Virus record (IMG/VR): IMGVR_UViG_3300033553_000042
Location: 1-44,261 of that record
Reading direction: 5' to 3' (one strand)
Source of the DNA: a virus
DNA length: 44,261 nt
The notes under the pieces: generated by a model
Databases searched by the model: none
Told to the model about the DNA's origin: nothing
The model's input: only the letters and a program-made list of their open reading frames with translations
Program-made: the position numbers and the translations under genes
Part shown: piece after piece, positions 6,424-14,479 of the stretch
Numbering within the stretch: the stretch's first letter is position 1
How the letters are laid out: every line of letters begins with the position of its first letter

Positions 6424-6654
6424 ATGGAAGTTAAAGTAATTCGTGTACCGGGTCGTACTTCAACAGTTGAAGTTCCTGAAAATTGTACATTAGCAGAAGC
6501 TCTTAACACAGCTGGCGTTGCTCTGGAATCTGGTGAAGCATGTAAATTGAATGGTGCAGCAGCATCTCTTGATGACATACTATCTGATGGCGACAAAGTG
6601 ATCGTTGCTAAGGGGGCTAAGGGAAATTGCCCACTGCACCTCTCAAGAGATTAA
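6424..6654 (+). CDS. Ubiquitin-like beta-grasp protein (MoaD/ThiS type)
   Basis: A 76-residue protein, about the size of ubiquitin. The pattern fits the MoaD/ThiS beta-grasp family: a first hairpin (MEVKVIRVPGRTSTVEVP), a helix with TLAEALNTAG, then KLNGAAASLDDILSDGDKVI, matching the family signature of Asn-Gly, Leu-x-Asp-Gly-Asp and a final strand. It lacks a terminal Gly-Gly. Instead AKGAKG (62-67) is followed by nine residues (NCPLHLSRD), so removal of a tail after Gly67 is plausible and a JAB protease is encoded nearby. GAGG lies nine bases before the ATG. Codon use suggests high expression. It is followed 74 bases later by the E1 gene. The modifier role is inferred from fold pattern and neighbours; a sulphur-carrier role is less likely with an E2-like gene present. 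Confidence 0.8.
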   Translation: MEVKVIRVPGRTSTVEVPENCTLAEALNTAGVALESGEACKLNGAAASLDDILSDGDKVIVAKGAKGNCPLHLSRD

Positions 6655-6670
6655 GTCTGTGCGAGAAAGA

Positions 6671-6690
6671 TATGGACAGGGACGTCCATA
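6671..6690 (+). other. Hairpin between Ubl and E1 genes
   Basis: TATGGAC pairs with GTCCATA over 7 bp around loop AGGGAC, 38 bases before the E1 start and without a T-run. It could lower expression of the enzymes relative to the modifier by RNA processing or partial stopping. Confidence 0.5.
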
Positions 6691-6728
6691 AAACTTGGGA
6701 GTTAGAAAATTTAACATGAGGAAAGTGT

Positions 6729-7406
6729 ATGATTAATACAGCAAGACACGTAGAGGTGTTTAATCCACTCCTCTATCAACACCCAATTCATATCATAGGG
6801 GCTGGAGCTACTGGCTCTCGCTTATTTGCGTCCCTAGTCGAGCTTGGTTTCGACGATATCACCGTATACGATGATGACATCGTAGAAAATCACAACTTAG
6901 CTAATCAGTTGTTTGTAATGGACGACATAGATAAACTTAAGGTTGATGGGCTTGACAGGTGGGTTCAACAAAAACTAGGTGAAGGCTTAAAGAATGGGGT
7001 GTATGTCCCACATCGGCTACCTAATAAAAATTTCCAGTTAGAGGGTACAGTTTTCCTCTTAACTGACACAATGACAAGTCGAAGAGAAATCTTTGACCAC
7101 TGTCTGAAGGATAATTTGATGGTTGAGCGTGTTATTGAGACACGTATGGCCTCATCCTTCGGGAATATCTACTCGTTTGACCCAAATATCGTGGGTGACC
7201 AGTGGCTATCTACATTAATTGATGATGATGAGGCTGAAGTATCTACATGTGGTAGTAGTATCAGCGTTGGGGCTACAGCTTCCATCATAGCTAATCAGGC
7301 GGTGTGGCAGTTTATGCTATCATTAACTGACCCTGAAGCTCATGACGACATTGTCGATATCTTTTTACAACCACTTTGTATGGGGACAAGAAAATGGGAA
7401 TACTAG
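6729..7406 (+). CDS. E1-like ThiF-family adenylating enzyme
   Basis: A 225-residue Rossmann protein of the ThiF/MoeB/E1 family, expected to use ATP to adenylate the C-terminus of the Ubl. Visible motifs: the nucleotide loop GAGATGSR (24-31), the acidic strand end and Asn/Gln motif VYDDDIVENHNLANQ (46-60), the downstream Asp in LLTDTMTSRRE (110-120) and STCGSSISVGATAS (172-185), where Cys174 is at the place of the E1 active-site cysteine. It is short, with no extra E1 domain and no Cys-x2-Cys zinc pairs as in MoeB. GAGGAAA gives the start. Its last 13 bases overlap the next gene. Confidence 0.88.
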   Translation: MINTARHVEVFNPLLYQHPIHIIGAGATGSRLFASLVELGFDDITVYDDDIVENHNLANQLFVMDDIDKLKVDGLDRWVQQKLGEGLKNGVYVPHRLPNKNFQLEGTVFLLTDTMTSRREIFDHCLKDNLMVERVIETRMASSFGNIYSFDPNIVGDQWLSTLIDDDEAEVSTCGSSISVGATASIIANQAVWQFMLSLTDPEAHDDIVDIFLQPLCMGTRKWEY

Positions 7407-7735
7407 CAACACAACTTATAACCCACATAAGTGAGGCTCTCATCTATGAGGGAGTGGGTGCTCAGATTGACTTACTACCTAAGAATACAACCCTTAGTAA
7501 GGTGATTACTGAGGAGGGTGTTTGGGCTTGGTCTTTCCAAGTATATTCAGGCGTCCCCCTTCACATCTTTTTCTATGTGGAAAAAGGCTTGACTCTGACC
7601 CACGTTCAAGTAATGCAGGGGCCTATGGACCATAAGACGACCAAGGCTGAGGTTGCAATCATATCGGAAGCCTTTGAGTGGCTGTTATTAGAGGGGGTAT
7701 TCCATGTCAAGAAAACGAAATCGGAGAGTGAATAA
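7394..7735 (+). CDS. Cassette protein, cysteine-free, alpha/beta (113 aa)
   Basis: It begins MGILATQLITHISEALIYEG at the ATG inside the end of the E1 gene; an in-frame ATG at 7376 is further inside E1 and less likely. Predicted order by eye: helix, four strands (AQIDLLPK, VWAWSFQVYSG, LHIFFYVEKG, THVQVMQG), then a long helix (KAEVAIISEAFEWLLLEGVF). That order resembles a small RWD/UEV-type E2-like fold without an active cysteine, but this is weak inference. Its position between E1 and JAB and the overlaps make it a cassette component, perhaps an adaptor holding Ubl or target. No sequence family is recognised. Confidence 0.7.
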   Translation: MGILATQLITHISEALIYEGVGAQIDLLPKNTTLSKVITEEGVWAWSFQVYSGVPLHIFFYVEKGLTLTHVQVMQGPMDHKTTKAEVAIISEAFEWLLLEGVFHVKKTKSESE

Positions 7736-7736
7736 G

Positions 7737-8489
7737 ATGTCACAGATTATAAAACCAAGATTCAAAATTACAGCTACCAGTATGGTGGCAAAAGCAGAGC
7801 CACTCTTATCCGTCGATCAGAGTAAGAGCCCTTCTGTCTGGTACTCTAACAAGGCTTGGTTGAAGATTAAGAGGGTGGTTGGTATGTGCCCTGAAGAAGT
7901 TGGCTGGTTAGGGACCGTTGACCGAGTTGATGGTGGCTATATAGTTACGGATATCTTTGTCCCCAAGCAAGTTGTTACAGGTACTGAGTGTGATATTGAA
8001 GCTGAAGATCTAGCCCAGCTGGTCCATGATTTAGATTATCCTGAGAACCTGTTCTATTGGGGACATTCCCATGTAAATATGGGTGTGAGCCCTAGTGTTC
8101 AGGATGAAAACCAGACCGGTGAATACCTTGAGCATAATGATGTGTTCATACGGGGTATCTATAACAAGCGAGGTGACTCAAAGGTTGATGTGTTTGACAC
8201 CGTCCAAGGTATGCAGTATCTCGTATGTCCTAATGGGGTTCGTATTGAACCTCTGTCCAGTGAGGAGATGGAAGCATTTGTCACCGGTGTAAAAGCTAAT
8301 GTAAATAAACCACCTGCATATGTCACACCTTATGTTAGTCAACAGGAAAAGATTGCAACTGATAAAAGGTTGGCTGAGTTTAAGGCGAAGAATAAAAGGG
8401 GTACCCCACCTGTCACTACCCGATTTCACAATAGCCCGGTTACTGCACTATATGAAAATCCGTTCATAGTGCTGGAGCGTGATTCATGA
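7737..8489 (+). CDS. JAB/JAMM-family metalloprotease (deubiquitinase-like)
   Basis: A 250-residue protein with a complete JAMM zinc protease motif: EVGWLG carries the catalytic Glu (residue 54), and GHSHVNMGVSPSVQD (109-123) gives His-x-His-x7-Ser-x2-Asp (His110, His112, Ser120, Asp123). Such enzymes cut after the Gly of a ubiquitin-like protein, either to trim its tail or to release it from targets. A C-terminal extension of about 100 residues, Lys- and Pro-containing, has no known motif. The start is ambiguous: ATG 7737 directly follows the previous stop, while an in-frame ATG at 7704 behind GAGGGGG would add 11 basic residues. The stop overlaps the E2-like gene by four bases. Confidence 0.9.
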   Translation: MSQIIKPRFKITATSMVAKAEPLLSVDQSKSPSVWYSNKAWLKIKRVVGMCPEEVGWLGTVDRVDGGYIVTDIFVPKQVVTGTECDIEAEDLAQLVHDLDYPENLFYWGHSHVNMGVSPSVQDENQTGEYLEHNDVFIRGIYNKRGDSKVDVFDTVQGMQYLVCPNGVRIEPLSSEEMEAFVTGVKANVNKPPAYVTPYVSQQEKIATDKRLAEFKAKNKRGTPPVTTRFHNSPVTALYENPFIVLERDS

Positions 8490-9718
8490 AAGTGAACCAA
8501 GTTGAGATCAAGAGTGTGGAACAGAGGAATTGTGAACGAGATATTAGCTCGTATGAAAACAGTCTTTTGGGATTGAAGGATGATGTACTCTTTCATAAGA
8601 GCACGTTGGACAAGTCTGAGAAGTTCTTGGTTACAGCAAACAACCGTTCGATAGATTATTTCTTTAAGAATGAACGGGTTGACAGAAACATTCGCTCTCT
8701 ATTACGGAACTCTTTTAACAATGAAATGGCTGGCAATAGAGCGAGAGTTAGGCGTTCAACGAATGCCATTGCCCACGCTGGTCGGAAGATCGTGGACTAT
8801 CAGAAGTTTCTCACAAGGCGCAAGGCTGAGTTGATTATGATCGTTGGACAACATCCACCTCGTATACTGACACAAGAAGATGTTCGTGATAAGTTAAGGG
8901 ATTTTGAACATGTGGACCTAGAGAACACCTACTTATATCATGATCATGGTGTTCCGGAACTCGTCGTTCGCTTTACTGGGATTAGATGTGAATTGAGGGA
9001 AAAACCTCACGGTAACATCCTTGATTCAAGCTGGATACTACCCGATATGAATGTTAGGATAAACCTTATAACAGGGTTGTCTCGTGTTTGCCGACTTCAG
9101 ACGGAGGAGAGAATGCCCCGAGGTTGGTCAGTGAATAAAGTGCACCCCCATATAATGGATGGGGAGGTCCCCTGTTATGGGGACTTCTTAGGTGCGGCTA
9201 ACGATGCTAAGGACTCTCAGGATATTACCGAAATGGTTACTATCATGCAGATGTTCCTAGAGACAGTAAATTATGACGACTCGGCAGGTAAGAAGTATGC
9301 CAGATACCTAATATATCGGTCTGAAGGTTTCAATTCAAGAGGTGTGGAGGGGGATCTCGTCAATAGTTTAGAGCGTATAGGTGGTGGTCTGGCGAATATA
9401 TATACGACGAAGGTAGACCACCCTACCACAGGTAGGCGGGTATTCTATGTACCCGTTGTTGAAGAGGGTGTCTATTCTTGCCACTATGTCGAGATTAGTA
9501 CGAATCATATTAAAGAGTTTACCGACGACTTAAGACTCCCTAAAGGTGAACGAAAGATAGCCATTTCGGAAGAACAAAAGGCGGCTAATTTAGAGGTTGA
9601 ACAAGCTCGTATTAAAAAGGCTTTGATTGCGAATGGAAATTGGAAGGAACCACCTATAGCCCCACCGCAGGTACCAGCTCCTCATCCTGACCTTAGGGTA
9701 GACCGAGACGGGGATTGA
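8486..9718 (+). CDS. E2-like conjugating protein with coiled-coil N-terminus
   Basis: A 410-residue protein beginning at ATGA over the JAB stop. Residues 1-120 are helical and highly charged, probably a coiled coil. Residues about 125-300 contain VHPHIMDGEVPCYGDFLGA (219-237), which matches the E2 active-site pattern His-Pro-x-Ile ... Gly-x-x-Cys, with Cys230 as the expected thioester cysteine, followed by a helical stretch (VTIMQMFLETVNYDD) as in the E2 helix after the active site. The region before it (WILPDMNVRINLITG) fits the strands of a UBC fold. Residues 300-410 form an extra domain ending in a Pro-rich tail. Expected role: accept the Ubl from E1 and pass it to a target lysine. No RING-type E3 is seen nearby, so this protein may choose targets itself. 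It is the most diverged member and the call rests on one motif plus context. Confidence 0.75.
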   Translation: MKVNQVEIKSVEQRNCERDISSYENSLLGLKDDVLFHKSTLDKSEKFLVTANNRSIDYFFKNERVDRNIRSLLRNSFNNEMAGNRARVRRSTNAIAHAGRKIVDYQKFLTRRKAELIMIVGQHPPRILTQEDVRDKLRDFEHVDLENTYLYHDHGVPELVVRFTGIRCELREKPHGNILDSSWILPDMNVRINLITGLSRVCRLQTEERMPRGWSVNKVHPHIMDGEVPCYGDFLGAANDAKDSQDITEMVTIMQMFLETVNYDDSAGKKYARYLIYRSEGFNSRGVEGDLVNSLERIGGGLANIYTTKVDHPTTGRRVFYVPVVEEGVYSCHYVEISTNHIKEFTDDLRLPKGERKIAISEEQKAANLEVEQARIKKALIANGNWKEPPIAPPQVPAPHPDLRVDRDGD

Positions 9719-10092: not shown

Positions 10093-11784
10093 ATGGGAAT
10101 ATGTGTAGAGAAGCTCCCACATAATACGGATAATTGTAACAGTAGTTCAGGATTACAGGTCTACGAAGATGAAGATGGGGGTTATAATGGATATTGTTGG
10201 GCTTGTGATACATTTGTCACAGACCCGTACAAGGATAAGCCGAAGGGGTATAAACCGGTTTCAATTAAGAAAGACCCGGCGGTTGTAGCACAAGAAATAT
10301 GGGACATCAGTCAATACCCTATCGTTGATGTTCCTCAGAGAGGTTTAGAAAAGAGAGCTCTTGAATATTTTGGGTATAGAATAGGTGTTAGTGGGGTAGA
10401 TGGTGTGACCCCGGCCATATTGTATAGACCGTATACCAAGGATACTGAGTTCTCTTCGTATAAGTCAAAGATATTAGACGAGAATGTTCCTAAGAAGAAA
10501 CGTCAGTGGTCTATAGGCGACCAGTCAGATGTTGATTTATTTGGGTGGGACATGGCCGTATCTAGTGGGAGCCCTAAGCTCATTATAACGGAAGGCGAAG
10601 AAGATGCAGTAGCCCTGTACCAAATGATTCGCAAAGTTAATGAGACGGCACAAGGGGGTAAGTATGTTGACCTTCTCCCAGCCGTTGTTAGTCTACCTCA
10701 CGGTGCTGCCGCTAGTGTTAGAGACCTCTCCCGACTAGCCTCAAAGATACAGGCTAATTTTAAAGAAATCATATTAGCCTTTGATATGGACGAGGTTGGT
10801 CAAGATTGGGCTCAGAAGGTAGTAGAGAAAGTCTTCGGTCACGCCAAGATTGCTTCCCTCCCTGCACATGATGCTAATGCCTGTCTTACGGAAGGTCGCA
10901 CTAAGGCCTGTGTAAGCGCCGTTCTCTGGAAGGCTAGTATCCCGAAGAACACCCGTATAGTAAAAGGGAGTTCTCTTCGTGAGCTCGCTCTCAAGAAGCC
11001 TGAGTGGGGTTTAGACTACCCCTTCAAGAAGCTTACAAAGATTACCCGTGGAAGACGTAGAGGGGAAACTATTTATGTTGGAGCCGGGGTTAAAATGGGT
11101 AAGTCTGAACTCGTCGATACGTTTGCTAAACAGATTATCGTAGAGGACGATCTACCGTGTTTCCTAGTTAAACCAGAACAGAGTAATGGGAGAACCTATC
11201 AACAGCTTGTAGGTAAGGCCGCTGGTAAAATCTTCCATGACCCAAGCGTCCCATTTGATGAGGAGGCTTTCTGTAGAGCTGAGAAGCTCATAGGGGACAA
11301 AGCTATCATCCTTGACAGTTACCAATTCCTAGATTGGGACGTACTGAAACAGGATATTCGATATGTAGTGTTAGGTGAGGGGGTTCAAGATATAATCATA
11401 GACCCCATTACAGCCTTCACGAATCAAATGAACTCTTCTGAAGCTAATGAATTCCTCATTGGCATGGCAGCCGAACTATCTTCAATGTCGTTAGACTTGA
11501 ACTTTACCTCGTTCCTATTCTGTCACCTAAAAGCACCTCGAGATGGAATGACCCCACATGAAAGAGGGGGGGAAGTCCTCAGTAGTCAGTTTGCTGGCTC
11601 AAGGGCTATGATGCGTTCATGTAACTACATGATGGCGTTACAAGGTAATAAAGACCCGGAATTAGAGGAGAACCAACGCAACATGAGGCAACTTGTTATC
11701 CTTGAGGATAGAGAGTTTGGTCAGGTTGGGAAGGTTGATCTGTTCTGGGATAAAAACACAGGCTTATTTAATGAGGTGAGGTAA
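10093..11784 (+). CDS. T7 gp4-like primase-helicase
   Basis: A 563-residue bifunctional replication protein. The N-terminal zinc-binding part has Cys4, Cys16 and CWAC near residues 36-39. A TOPRIM domain follows with TEGEEDAVALYQ and LAFDMDEVGQDWA, the Glu and Asp-x-Asp metal ligands. The helicase half carries Walker A GAGVKMGKSE, a Walker B-like strand IIIDPITAF and FCHLKAP, as in the DnaB/RecA fold of T7 gp4. It unwinds the fork and lays primers for the polymerase encoded downstream. AGGAGACC precedes the ATG. Its stop overlaps the phosphatase start (TAATG). Length matches T7 gp4 (566 residues). Confidence 0.93.
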   Translation: MGICVEKLPHNTDNCNSSSGLQVYEDEDGGYNGYCWACDTFVTDPYKDKPKGYKPVSIKKDPAVVAQEIWDISQYPIVDVPQRGLEKRALEYFGYRIGVSGVDGVTPAILYRPYTKDTEFSSYKSKILDENVPKKKRQWSIGDQSDVDLFGWDMAVSSGSPKLIITEGEEDAVALYQMIRKVNETAQGGKYVDLLPAVVSLPHGAAASVRDLSRLASKIQANFKEIILAFDMDEVGQDWAQKVVEKVFGHAKIASLPAHDANACLTEGRTKACVSAVLWKASIPKNTRIVKGSSLRELALKKPEWGLDYPFKKLTKITRGRRRGETIYVGAGVKMGKSELVDTFAKQIIVEDDLPCFLVKPEQSNGRTYQQLVGKAAGKIFHDPSVPFDEEAFCRAEKLIGDKAIILDSYQFLDWDVLKQDIRYVVLGEGVQDIIIDPITAFTNQMNSSEANEFLIGMAAELSSMSLDLNFTSFLFCHLKAPRDGMTPHERGGEVLSSQFAGSRAMMRSCNYMMALQGNKDPELEENQRNMRQLVILEDREFGQVGKVDLFWDKNTGLFNEVR

Positions 11785-12506
11785 TGAAGTACATATTCTT
11801 AGGGGATACACACGGTAAACTTGAGCTCGTAGAAGCTCTACTGTCTGACGCTTTTAAGGGATACCACAAGGTATTTGTAGGAGACTACGTCGACAGTTTC
11901 GATAGAAGCTCAGAAGCTCAAATTCAGATAGTTAGATTACTCTTGAATTCAGTGACGAGTAGGGGTGATGTGACAGCCTTAATTGGAAATCACGAACTAT
12001 CTTACCTCCGAGCTGGTATGGAGTGCTCAGGTCGTCGTTCTAACACAGCGTACTCTATGACCCATTTAAAAACAAATATTCTCCGACATTTTAAGAGACA
12101 TCTCTATGTTACTGACGATATACTGGTCACCCATGCTGGTGCAACTTACCAGAACTTTGAGGATAAAACGTTTCTAAAGATGAATCTAGAACAGGATAGC
12201 GATATTCTGTATCGTATCGGACGTTCTCGGGGAGGTTGGTCAACGGCAGGGGGTATATTCTGGTGTGACTACTGGGAGGAGTTTCAACCAATTAAAGGTT
12301 TGACCCAGATTGTTGGCCACACCTCTTATAGACCTTTCGTAAAGAAAGACGGAAAGCATTGTATCGACAAGGGGATAGTCCTGAAGGATGGTTGTTACAA
12401 TATTGACTGTTTAGACAGGGTTACTGAGGCTCTCACTTACGACAGTGAGACTGGGGTATTTATGATTATAGATTTTATGGAGGGAGGATGTCTGACACCT
12501 ACTTAA
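11784..12506 (+). CDS. Calcineurin-like metallophosphatase (PPP type)
   Basis: A 240-residue phosphatase with the classic series GDTHGKLE (7-14), GDYVDSFDRS, IGNHELSY and GHTSYRPF, the Asp, His and Asn ligands of a two-metal centre. It resembles the lambda/PPP protein phosphatase group. It overlaps a second metallophosphatase gene. Possible targets are phosphoproteins or nucleotides or nucleic acid ends; the sequence alone does not decide. Confidence 0.88.
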   Translation: MKYIFLGDTHGKLELVEALLSDAFKGYHKVFVGDYVDSFDRSSEAQIQIVRLLLNSVTSRGDVTALIGNHELSYLRAGMECSGRRSNTAYSMTHLKTNILRHFKRHLYVTDDILVTHAGATYQNFEDKTFLKMNLEQDSDILYRIGRSRGGWSTAGGIFWCDYWEEFQPIKGLTQIVGHTSYRPFVKKDGKHCIDKGIVLKDGCYNIDCLDRVTEALTYDSETGVFMIIDFMEGGCLTPT

Positions 12507-12997
12507 TTAGTGATCTTCACATAGGTCACAGTAATATACACCTCAAGTGGAAGACACAATTTAAGACACAGGAGGAGCATACAGAACATGCTATCGAGTG
12601 CTGGAATAGTGTAGTAGGGGCTAGGGATACGGTTAAAGTCCTAGGTGACTTCATTATAGGTAGGGAGAATCTACACTACCTTAACAGGTTCAACGGGATA
12701 ATCCACTGGATACTGGGTAACCATGACCCAAAGATTACTAAGGATATCCTCGTAGACTATCGACATCTCGCCTATGTTGGTGGAATACTTGCCTATAAAG
12801 GGACTGTCCTCTCTCACGCCCCAATTCATCCACAGGAACTCGAATATCGTAACTGGGCGTTGAACTTACACGGTCACATCCACCACAAAGAGAAGAATAA
12901 CCTAGGTAAAAAATATTTCAACTGTAATGTTGACATAATGGGAGACTACCCGAGGGAGTTTCATTCAATTATCGAAGAAGTGGGAGCGAAGAACTGA
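12488..12997 (+). CDS. Second calcineurin-like phosphoesterase
   Basis: A 169-residue protein with SDLHIGHSN, LGDFIIGR, LGNHDPK, SHAPIHPQE and LHGHIHHK: all five metallophosphoesterase motifs in order. The spacing is that of small YfcE/MJ0936-like phosphodiesterases rather than PPP enzymes, so it is not a simple duplicate of the gene before it, which it overlaps by 19 bases. GGAGGA provides its ribosome site. Substrate unknown; cyclic nucleotides or RNA ends are possible. Confidence 0.88.
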   Translation: MSDTYLISDLHIGHSNIHLKWKTQFKTQEEHTEHAIECWNSVVGARDTVKVLGDFIIGRENLHYLNRFNGIIHWILGNHDPKITKDILVDYRHLAYVGGILAYKGTVLSHAPIHPQELEYRNWALNLHGHIHHKEKNNLGKKYFNCNVDIMGDYPREFHSIIEEVGAKN

Positions 12998-13236
12998 TGG
13001 CAGGACCGAATGAATGGAGAATAGCCGATGTAGAGCGCAAAGCTGAGAGAGTTGTTAGACGACTCTACGAGGTAGACAATCTTAATCGAGAAGTATCCGA
13101 TTTAGAACGCAAGAACGCAAGTCTAAGAGAGACAATATCAGAGTTGTCTAATACTGTCCGAGAGTTACATGATAACCTAGAGCAATTAGGTAGACGTGTG
13201 GAAGAAATAGCTGAACAGGTGGAGGTTTCACTATGA
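12997..13236 (+). CDS. Small coiled-coil protein (79 aa)
   Basis: Almost entirely a charged coiled coil (NREVSDLERKNASLRETISE, LHDNLEQLGRRVEEI). The start overlaps the preceding stop by one base and its own stop overlaps the next start. A multimerising or scaffold role is likely; the partner is unknown. Confidence 0.7.
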   Translation: MAGPNEWRIADVERKAERVVRRLYEVDNLNREVSDLERKNASLRETISELSNTVRELHDNLEQLGRRVEEIAEQVEVSL

Positions 13237-13427
13237 CATTTTATACGGTAAGTAAGGATGTAGGGGATACAATCCCTAATGGTGTTGAATACCTCCTTGA
13301 TGTCGAGAACAACATCATGGGATTGACTGAAAAAGAGATCTGTGATATGTTCGATATGGAATCCTTATCGGAGGCCCCAGATAAGGGTTTGATGATTGGG
13401 GACTATCCCCACCCGGAGTTTAAATGA
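13233..13427 (+). CDS. Small acidic protein (64 aa)
   Basis: It follows GGAGG and overlaps its neighbours by four bases on each side. Acidic (YLLDVENNIMGLTEKEICDM), no membrane segment, not recognised. Acidic small phage proteins often bind and inhibit host enzymes, which here is only a possibility. Confidence 0.6.
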   Translation: MTFYTVSKDVGDTIPNGVEYLLDVENNIMGLTEKEICDMFDMESLSEAPDKGLMIGDYPHPEFK

Positions 13428-13633
13428 ATAAGAAACAGTTTAAAGAAGCCATCCTCGAAGGTGAATGTGATGGACACCAACCTGTAGTGTCTGATGCTGA
13501 ACTCCAGATCATAGTCAATCAATGCCTAGACGTTGTTAAAGAGCAGGTAAAGAGTCTAGATACAGGTTATCGGGATGGGAGTTGGGTCAGAACTCAAATA
13601 ATAGCTAAAATTGAATCTCTTAAGGTGAAGTAA
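13424..13633 (+). CDS. Small hypothetical protein (69 aa)
   Basis: It overlaps the previous gene (ATGA) and touches the sigma-like gene at TAATG. Helical (LQIIVNQCLDVVKEQVKSLD), with a C-terminal basic helix. Tight coupling to the sigma-like gene might make it a partner, but there is no direct support. Confidence 0.6.
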   Translation: MNKKQFKEAILEGECDGHQPVVSDAELQIIVNQCLDVVKEQVKSLDTGYRDGSWVRTQIIAKIESLKVK

Positions 13634-14238
13634 TGACGGAAGAAGAAGAGATAATCCGACAGGAAGCTAAGAAACATTTCCTTGAATACGGGGATAAAGT
13701 AAAAGCTAAGGTTGGGGAAGACCCTCACAGCTCCTATGATGTCCATAGAGGGTACTTAACCAAGTATGCCTACACCAAGCTAGGTCGTAACTGGCAAGAC
13801 GCTGAGGACGCCGTACAGGCCGCCTATGTGAGTGTCCTTGAAACTGCTAAGGTTAACGAGTTCTTCGTCTTCGGTGGGTTATATAAGATATGGCTTGACC
13901 GGGCTATCCGGGATGTCCGTATTGGAAACCGACGGTCAAATGATCTATTCATTGATAATGATGCAGTTGAGGGGGGTGAGGGTCTAACACTCATAGACTT
14001 AGCGGAATCAGAGGAGCCTCCTACTGAATTACTACTGGAAGTTCAGTCTAAGGTCAATTTCTTAATTGAGAGGACTAATGAACTCCGTCCTAAAGCTAAA
14101 GCTATCATTCGCTTGACCGTCCTATTCGGATATTCCTATAAGGAAGTGGCGAGGATGCTTGAGGTGGATGTTAAGCGAGTAGAGAATACTCTCGGTTACT
14201 TTAAGAAAATCTACAGTGAGGAGAACGGAAGTGAGTAG
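13633..14238 (+). CDS. Sigma-70-family (ECF-like) sigma factor
   Basis: A 201-residue protein with two sigma-like domains. Residues about 45-95 resemble region 2: NWQDAEDAVQAAYVSVLETA, then FVFGGLYKIWLDRAIRDV. Residues about 145-195 resemble region 4, with a helix-turn-helix (RLTVLFGYSYKEVARMLEVD followed by VKRVENTLGYFKKIY). ECF factors have just these two domains and this size. It would redirect host RNA polymerase to phage promoters, which suits a phage with no polymerase of its own; the bipartite repeats at 1656, 5880 and 34159 are candidate targets. AGGTGAAG gives the start. Confidence 0.78.
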   Translation: MTEEEEIIRQEAKKHFLEYGDKVKAKVGEDPHSSYDVHRGYLTKYAYTKLGRNWQDAEDAVQAAYVSVLETAKVNEFFVFGGLYKIWLDRAIRDVRIGNRRSNDLFIDNDAVEGGEGLTLIDLAESEEPPTELLLEVQSKVNFLIERTNELRPKAKAIIRLTVLFGYSYKEVARMLEVDVKRVENTLGYFKKIYSEENGSE

Positions 14239-14479
14239 TTGGAAATATAAAAACAGAGAACAATTGGTATCTGCCAAGGCGGCATTCTTCCTGACAATGG
14301 AGAAGCTCAACTATCAGATTGATAACGCGGAAACTCAGTTACACTGGATAAACCACTATCTAGCCATTCTAAATAAGCCTGAGAAGCTGACCGTCAAACA
14401 GATAGAAGAGAAACTTGGATTTAAGGTTCATATTGTATCGGAGGACGGAGAAGTTTTAGGGGGCAAAGGTGGTGAATGA
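14231..14479 (+). CDS. Small hypothetical protein (82 aa), GTG start
   Basis: GAGGAG lies seven bases before GTG at 14231, overlapping the sigma gene end; an earlier GTG at 14216 has no such site. Mostly helical (LVSAKAAFFLTMEKLNYQID) with a short C-terminal basic-acidic region. Possible regulator of the sigma-like factor by position only. Confidence 0.65.
   Translation: MSSWKYKNREQLVSAKAAFFLTMEKLNYQIDNAETQLHWINHYLAILNKPEKLTVKQIEEKLGFKVHIVSEDGEVLGGKGGE

Follow-up and report, generated by a model that had tools for sequence, protein, structure and literature searches.

The viral sequence analysed here, the whole of IMG/VR virus record IMGVR_UViG_3300033553_000042 (44,261 bases, referred to as the window), carries five consecutive plus-strand genes (6424-9718) that raise the question of whether a virus of bacteria can encode a complete ubiquitin-like (Ubl) conjugation pathway of its own, able both to attach a modifier and to release it. 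Bacterial Ubl conjugation is so far best known as an anti-phage defence. An earlier note had read the five genes as a Ubl modifier, an E1 enzyme, a small partner, a JAB/JAMM protease and an E2-like protein. The coordinates of all five open reading frames (ORFs) were confirmed, and each had a coding signal, with a codon score of 0.10-0.15 in frame and negative scores in the other five frames. The claim of a complete attach-and-release set is supported by matches of the family profiles, by conserved active sites, by the occurrence of the linked genes in 60 other loci and by the fold of the E2. Our overall reading, to which we assign a probability of about 0.7, is that the cassette is a self-contained, reversible Ubl conjugation pathway of a lytic podovirus that acts in the replication phase.

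The E1 gene (6729..7406) encodes a minimal ThiF-type adenylating enzyme of 225 residues that matched Pfam ThiF (PF00899, E=1.2e-14) and has relatives in the fetched loci. Both motifs singled out earlier, GAGATGSR and Cys174, were present, and Cys174 (codon 7248..7250), the predicted thioester cysteine, was retained in 64 of 68 aligned relatives. The window protein scored far under the cut-off of every curated E1 family, including the ThiF equivalog model (44.4 bits, cut-off 275.25) and the PRTRC ThiF model (31.4 bits, cut-off 144.75).

The protease gene (7737..8489) starts at ATG 7737 or 7704. The full JAMM motif that had been proposed, a Glu plus HxH-x7-S-x2-D, was intact, with the metal site HSHVNMGVSPSVQD at 8064..8105 and the partner Glu at 7896-7898; HSH, S and D were invariant in 26 sequences, and the Glu was present in 90% or more. 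Prok-JAB was matched by 11 of the 26 JAB relatives, and the JAB family profile (A6) matched Rpn11 (2.2e-10). The window JAB alone matched no Pfam or NCBIfam model, and no curated family names it.

The modifier (6424..6654, 76 residues) was placed through its family. A profile of 12 relatives (A7) matched SAMP2 (E=4.6e-5) and family members matched Pfam ThiS (best 2.5e-5), which bore out the beta-grasp assignment; the window protein alone gave weak ThiS and Ub-Mut7C matches in Pfam, and homologues lie beside E1, JAB and E2 genes elsewhere. Its C-terminus, KGN followed by the eight-residue tail CPLHLSRD (6619..6651), is the predicted maturation site. A (K/R)G(N/A)-type motif, in a pattern that also admitted close variants, closed the Ubl domain in 58 of the 61 loci with a full set, where it was followed mostly by 0 or 1 residues and sometimes by 9 to 123; the match in one long-tailed Ubl (L017) probably arose by chance. 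Three Ubls in a row were found in L014 and two in L152, L114, L113, L143, L125 and L127, with KGN or RGA at the junctions, while L071 is a more diverged tandem case. These head-to-tail Ubls have the layout of polyubiquitin, which implies proteolytic cleavage at the junctions. Given the (K/R)G(N/A) ending with its variable tail and the joined Ubls of the relatives, the JAMM protease probably matures the modifier, leaving an end that may be KG or KGN.

The last gene (8486..9718) encodes an E2-like protein of 410 residues with an N-terminal coiled coil and a UBC-like domain (residues 122-285, 8849..9340). The coiled coil dominated the fold matches of a full-length model, so the domain was modelled in isolation with AF2 from 70 sequences (alignment A10). 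The model (pLDDT 85.6, pTM 0.81) consisted of a helix, a beta meander, the active-site loop and further helices. Structural comparison with VIA placed UBE2S first (Z 8.1, 124 residues, 3.4 Å), followed by UBE2W and UBC13, and UBC-type proteins (E2/UEV) filled 49 of the 50 matches listed, including Cap2 (Z 6.0) and BubB (Z 5.7). The modelled domain therefore has a UBC fold, with E2s as its closest structural matches, in line with the E2-type assignment made previously from the HPHI ... Cys motif.

That motif was confirmed as HPHIMDGEVPC (9143..9175). In the 70 related domains, its second His (His222) and Gly232 were invariant, Cys230 was kept in 69, Asp265 in 66 and the Pro in 62; the first His was kept in just 41, which makes PH-x(n)-C-x-G the better notation for the site. 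Cys230, whose catalytic placement is predicted from the motif, lies at +10 from the first His, the spacing seen in HPN E2s, and His222 occupies the position of the Asn in classical E2s. The window E2 alone matched no Pfam or NCBIfam model, and searches with 23 family members in Pfam and 70 in NCBIfam gave no naming match. Against PDB sequences, the E2 profile returned coiled-coil noise only and the domain profile returned no match. The E2-like ORFs varied from 144 to 1690 residues across relatives, and those of L016, L106, L114 and L015 are among the ones with Cys-rich, zinc-ribbon-like stretches (up to 15 CxxC).

Single-sequence scans of viral contigs for relatives of the E2, the E1 and the small protein found nothing, so profiles were needed. 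Alignment of the E1 with three phage relatives and a scan of viral contigs gave 64 loci, a JAB-only profile scan gave 78, and iterated hidden Markov model searches over all ORFs of 151 loci left 114 distinct loci, the window included, that share cassette enzymes. Sixty-one of these, again counting the window, hold Ubl, E1, JAB and E2. Linkage was kept while gene order varied, since 12 arrangements occur. The cleaner linkage test is the JAB-seeded set of 50 distinct loci, in which E1 was nearby in 48, E2 in 47 and Ubl in 49. The pairwise distances of the four families were correlated (r 0.82-0.88; 0 of 999 permutations), as expected if these sequences had been inherited together as a unit.

About sixty very different sequences besides the window carry the four-part set, and nearly all are viral. 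When 84,980 genomes were scanned with the E1, five loci came up, three with the wider set, although such scans were pattern-limited and the counts are lower bounds; the family is therefore mainly viral in the collections searched. A DNA-level search of phage records gave no match. Partial sets occur in two cultured phages, Xanthomonas phage PhiXhv-15 (L001:3253-6806), which has an E1 and an 892-residue protein with HPHM...CLG, and Flavobacterium phage Fpv3 (L002:1607-5618), which has a JAB and an E1.

The virus that carries the cassette is a lytic podovirus. It encodes a terminase, head-tail adaptor, major head protein, tail appendage, helicase-primase, DNA polymerase and both ribonucleotide reductase subunits, and its terminase shares 58% identity with those of Vibrio podoviruses (Zobellviridae). 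Profile searches did not find the cassette genes in two such Vibrio podoviruses (L069 and L070), so the cassette is optional in the group. Replication-type genes lie on the plus strand and structural genes mostly on the minus strand, and the next large gene downstream of the cassette is the helicase-primase. Elsewhere the cassette lies near DNA polymerase (L016, L086), SbcC (L135), another helicase (L144) or DnaB helicase with primase or SSB (L107, L114, L117, L130, L141); the flanking large ORFs were picked by hand, and this neighbourhood is a trend, not a test. Because the gene set sits within the replication block, it would probably act on host or phage proteins in takeover or genome replication and not on late virions. 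Taken by itself, a role of the cassette in host takeover or replication is an even proposition.

The gene set, the folds or families of its products, their active sites and their linkage lead us to infer that conjugation chemistry is very probably what the cassette carries out. Cleavage by the JAMM protease behind Lys-Gly (or KGN) would first free the Ubl of its tail, CPLHLSRD. The E1, of ThiF type, would then adenylate the new C-terminus with ATP and take the Ubl onto Cys174, from which it would be handed to Cys230 of the E2-like protein, with His222 standing at the Asn position of HPN. The long and highly variable N-terminal part of the E2, a coiled coil in the window, probably holds the substrate, so that no separate E3 would be needed. 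The same JAMM protease would later remove the tag.

Several observations weigh against this reading: 1) the C-terminus of the window Ubl lacks GG, 2) a Foldseek search of the E2 domain model against the PDB gave no significant match (best E 0.23), 3) a structural Z near 8 is modest, 4) in 27 related loci the profiles detected E1 and JAB alone, and the E2 there may be absent or too diverged to detect, and 5) the distance correlation may stem in part from shared phage ancestry.

The alternative that survives best is that the same chemistry is a defence that the phage carries against its competitors among phages (superinfection exclusion), for which there is a precedent in bacteria, where Bil tags the tail proteins of phages according to work cited in PMC12135933. 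A retron-type reverse transcriptase lies just downstream of the cassette in 17 distinct gut-clade loci. Retrons are known defence elements; however, the cassette is found among replication genes in the window clade and several others, and no retron was seen beside the window cassette. We consider a defensive function unlikely, although it deserves more weight than the remaining alternatives. Counter-defence, in which the JAMM protease and E2 would strip or sequester the Ubl conjugates of host Bil or type II CBASS systems while the Ubl and E1 acted as decoys, would suit a protease that looks active by its intact metal site, and phage inhibitors of host Ubl systems are plausible from known biology. 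A protease alone would suffice for stripping, however, whereas the 61 loci conserve every active site along with the Ubl C-terminus and JAB loci without an E1 are rare (2 of 50), which makes this explanation improbable. Least probable of all is a sulfur carrier route comparable to ThiS/ThiF or CysO, in which the E1 would make a Ubl thiocarboxylate for cofactor, tRNA or amino-acid synthesis and the JAB would trim the carrier: the minimal ThiF-type E1 and SAMP2/ThiS-like Ubl would fit, and SAMP2 and TtuB serve both as sulfur carriers and as protein modifiers, but the set includes an E2 with a nearly invariant Cys (69/70), no rhodanese or sulfur-metabolism gene was recognised within the cassette and the E1 falls far below the ThiF equivalog cut-off (44 against 275).

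A reversible conjugation pathway, the preferred reading, brings the cassette close to several known systems. In its working it would resemble Bil, type II CBASS, PRTRC and the 6e type, but it is not filed with any of them; at least one checkable defining feature of each is absent here. On its sequences it is described as a new, mostly viral version, and the architecture of the E1, the active site of the E2 or the scores against curated cut-offs distinguish it from Bil, type II CBASS and PRTRC. Type II CBASS (Cap2/Cap3) likewise combines an E1, a UBC-fold E2, here a structural neighbour, and a JAB, but Cap2 is an E2-E1 fusion that conjugates the CD-NTase, whereas the window has four separate genes, including a Ubl, with E1 and E2 unfused. 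The Bub system of Citrobacter has a UBC-fold partner (BubB) and an E1 chain matched by our E1 profile (7.7e-8), but BubCD is a single chain of 458 residues in the PDB, whereas JAB and E1 are separate in the window. The archaeal SAMP2/JAMM1 system shares the JAMM protease and a resembling Ubl, and we know of no SAMP pathway that includes an E2.

Bil (BilABCD) has the same four parts, Ubl, E2, JAB and E1, and in that system the JAB processes the Ubl ahead of its activation. The modifier BilA contains two ISG15-like Ubl domains, the E1 (BilD) combines an inactive and an active adenylation domain with a Cys domain, and in the E2 (BilB) the key His follows the Cys in a CEHH motif (PMC11354881). In contrast, the window encodes one Ubl and an E1 with a single ThiF domain, and the invariant His of its E2 precedes Cys230, with no His after Cys230 at the CEHH distance. 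In type 6d/PRTRC (Iyer 2006), the Ubl, JAB, E1 and E2 are also separate genes, but the E2 has a His downstream in place of the upstream one, and the JAB has its own N-terminal domain (PMC1779556); the window E1 is under the PRTRC ThiF cut-off given above. Type 6e (polyUbl) shares tandem Ubl repeats with some cassette relatives, but its JAB is mostly fused to the E1 and the Cys is missing from its E2-like domain (PMC1779556), whereas the window E2 has the Cys and the JAB and E1 genes are separate.

By gene content, the four-part set appears to be a widespread viral counterpart of a pathway more familiar from human cells, and its conservation as a complete set inside phages suggests that viruses of bacteria also use Ubl conjugation as a tool of their own. 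We tentatively propose a mostly viral lineage of complete Ubl pathways, with JAMM-matured polyubiquitin-like precursors, His in place of the E2 Asn and substrate-recruiting domains borne by the E2, with which many unrelated phages would mark proteins, either at the replication fork or, during takeover, in the host. Natural poly-Ubl genes occur in this large and so far unnamed family of E1, E2, JAMM and Ubl, which may help in tracing how ubiquitin systems originated, and the partial sets of PhiXhv-15 and Fpv3 make the pathway open to testing. In the literature searched, which did not include bioRxiv and was sparse in subscription papers, no account of a Ubl conjugation pathway carried by a phage was found, so that one may have been described earlier elsewhere.

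The small gene between E1 and JAB (7394..7735, ATG 7394 with TTG 7376 possible) had been called a small partner. The coding signal showed the gene to be real, but its product is an orphan: nothing related to it was found in phage records, viral contigs or fetched loci, and it has no Pfam or NCBIfam match. In L016, which has the closest E1 (53%), the small gene is absent and E1 and JAB overlap directly; unrelated small inserts separate JAB from E1 in other cassettes. The gene is thus, as judged by these comparisons, a lineage-specific accessory outside the conserved set. The small protein was also compared, as a possible diverged copy, with the product of a small ORF that overlaps the E1 gene in PhiXhv-15, and no similarity was found.

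The reverse transcriptase of the gut-type clade is a YADD enzyme encoded 0.2-1.2 kb downstream of E1 (L004, L018-L020, L023-L031, L033, L034, L044 and L073; for example L073:6997-8136), and its best PDB match was the retron Ec83 enzyme (5e-25). No adenine-biased repeat pair was found in the 12 gut loci checked, so it is probably not part of a diversity-generating element. In L135 and L150, a second group of Ubl, E2-like and JAB hits follows the first cassette at about 11054-14453, with an SbcC-like gene between. In the window, the product of the ORF at 13633-14238 resembles a small sigma factor, and in Vibrio phage VPMCC5 genes of sigma-70 type lie next to the helicase gene. Finally, an inverted repeat, TATGGACAGGGACGTCCATA, occupies 6671-6690, in the intergenic stretch that separates the Ubl gene from the E1 gene.

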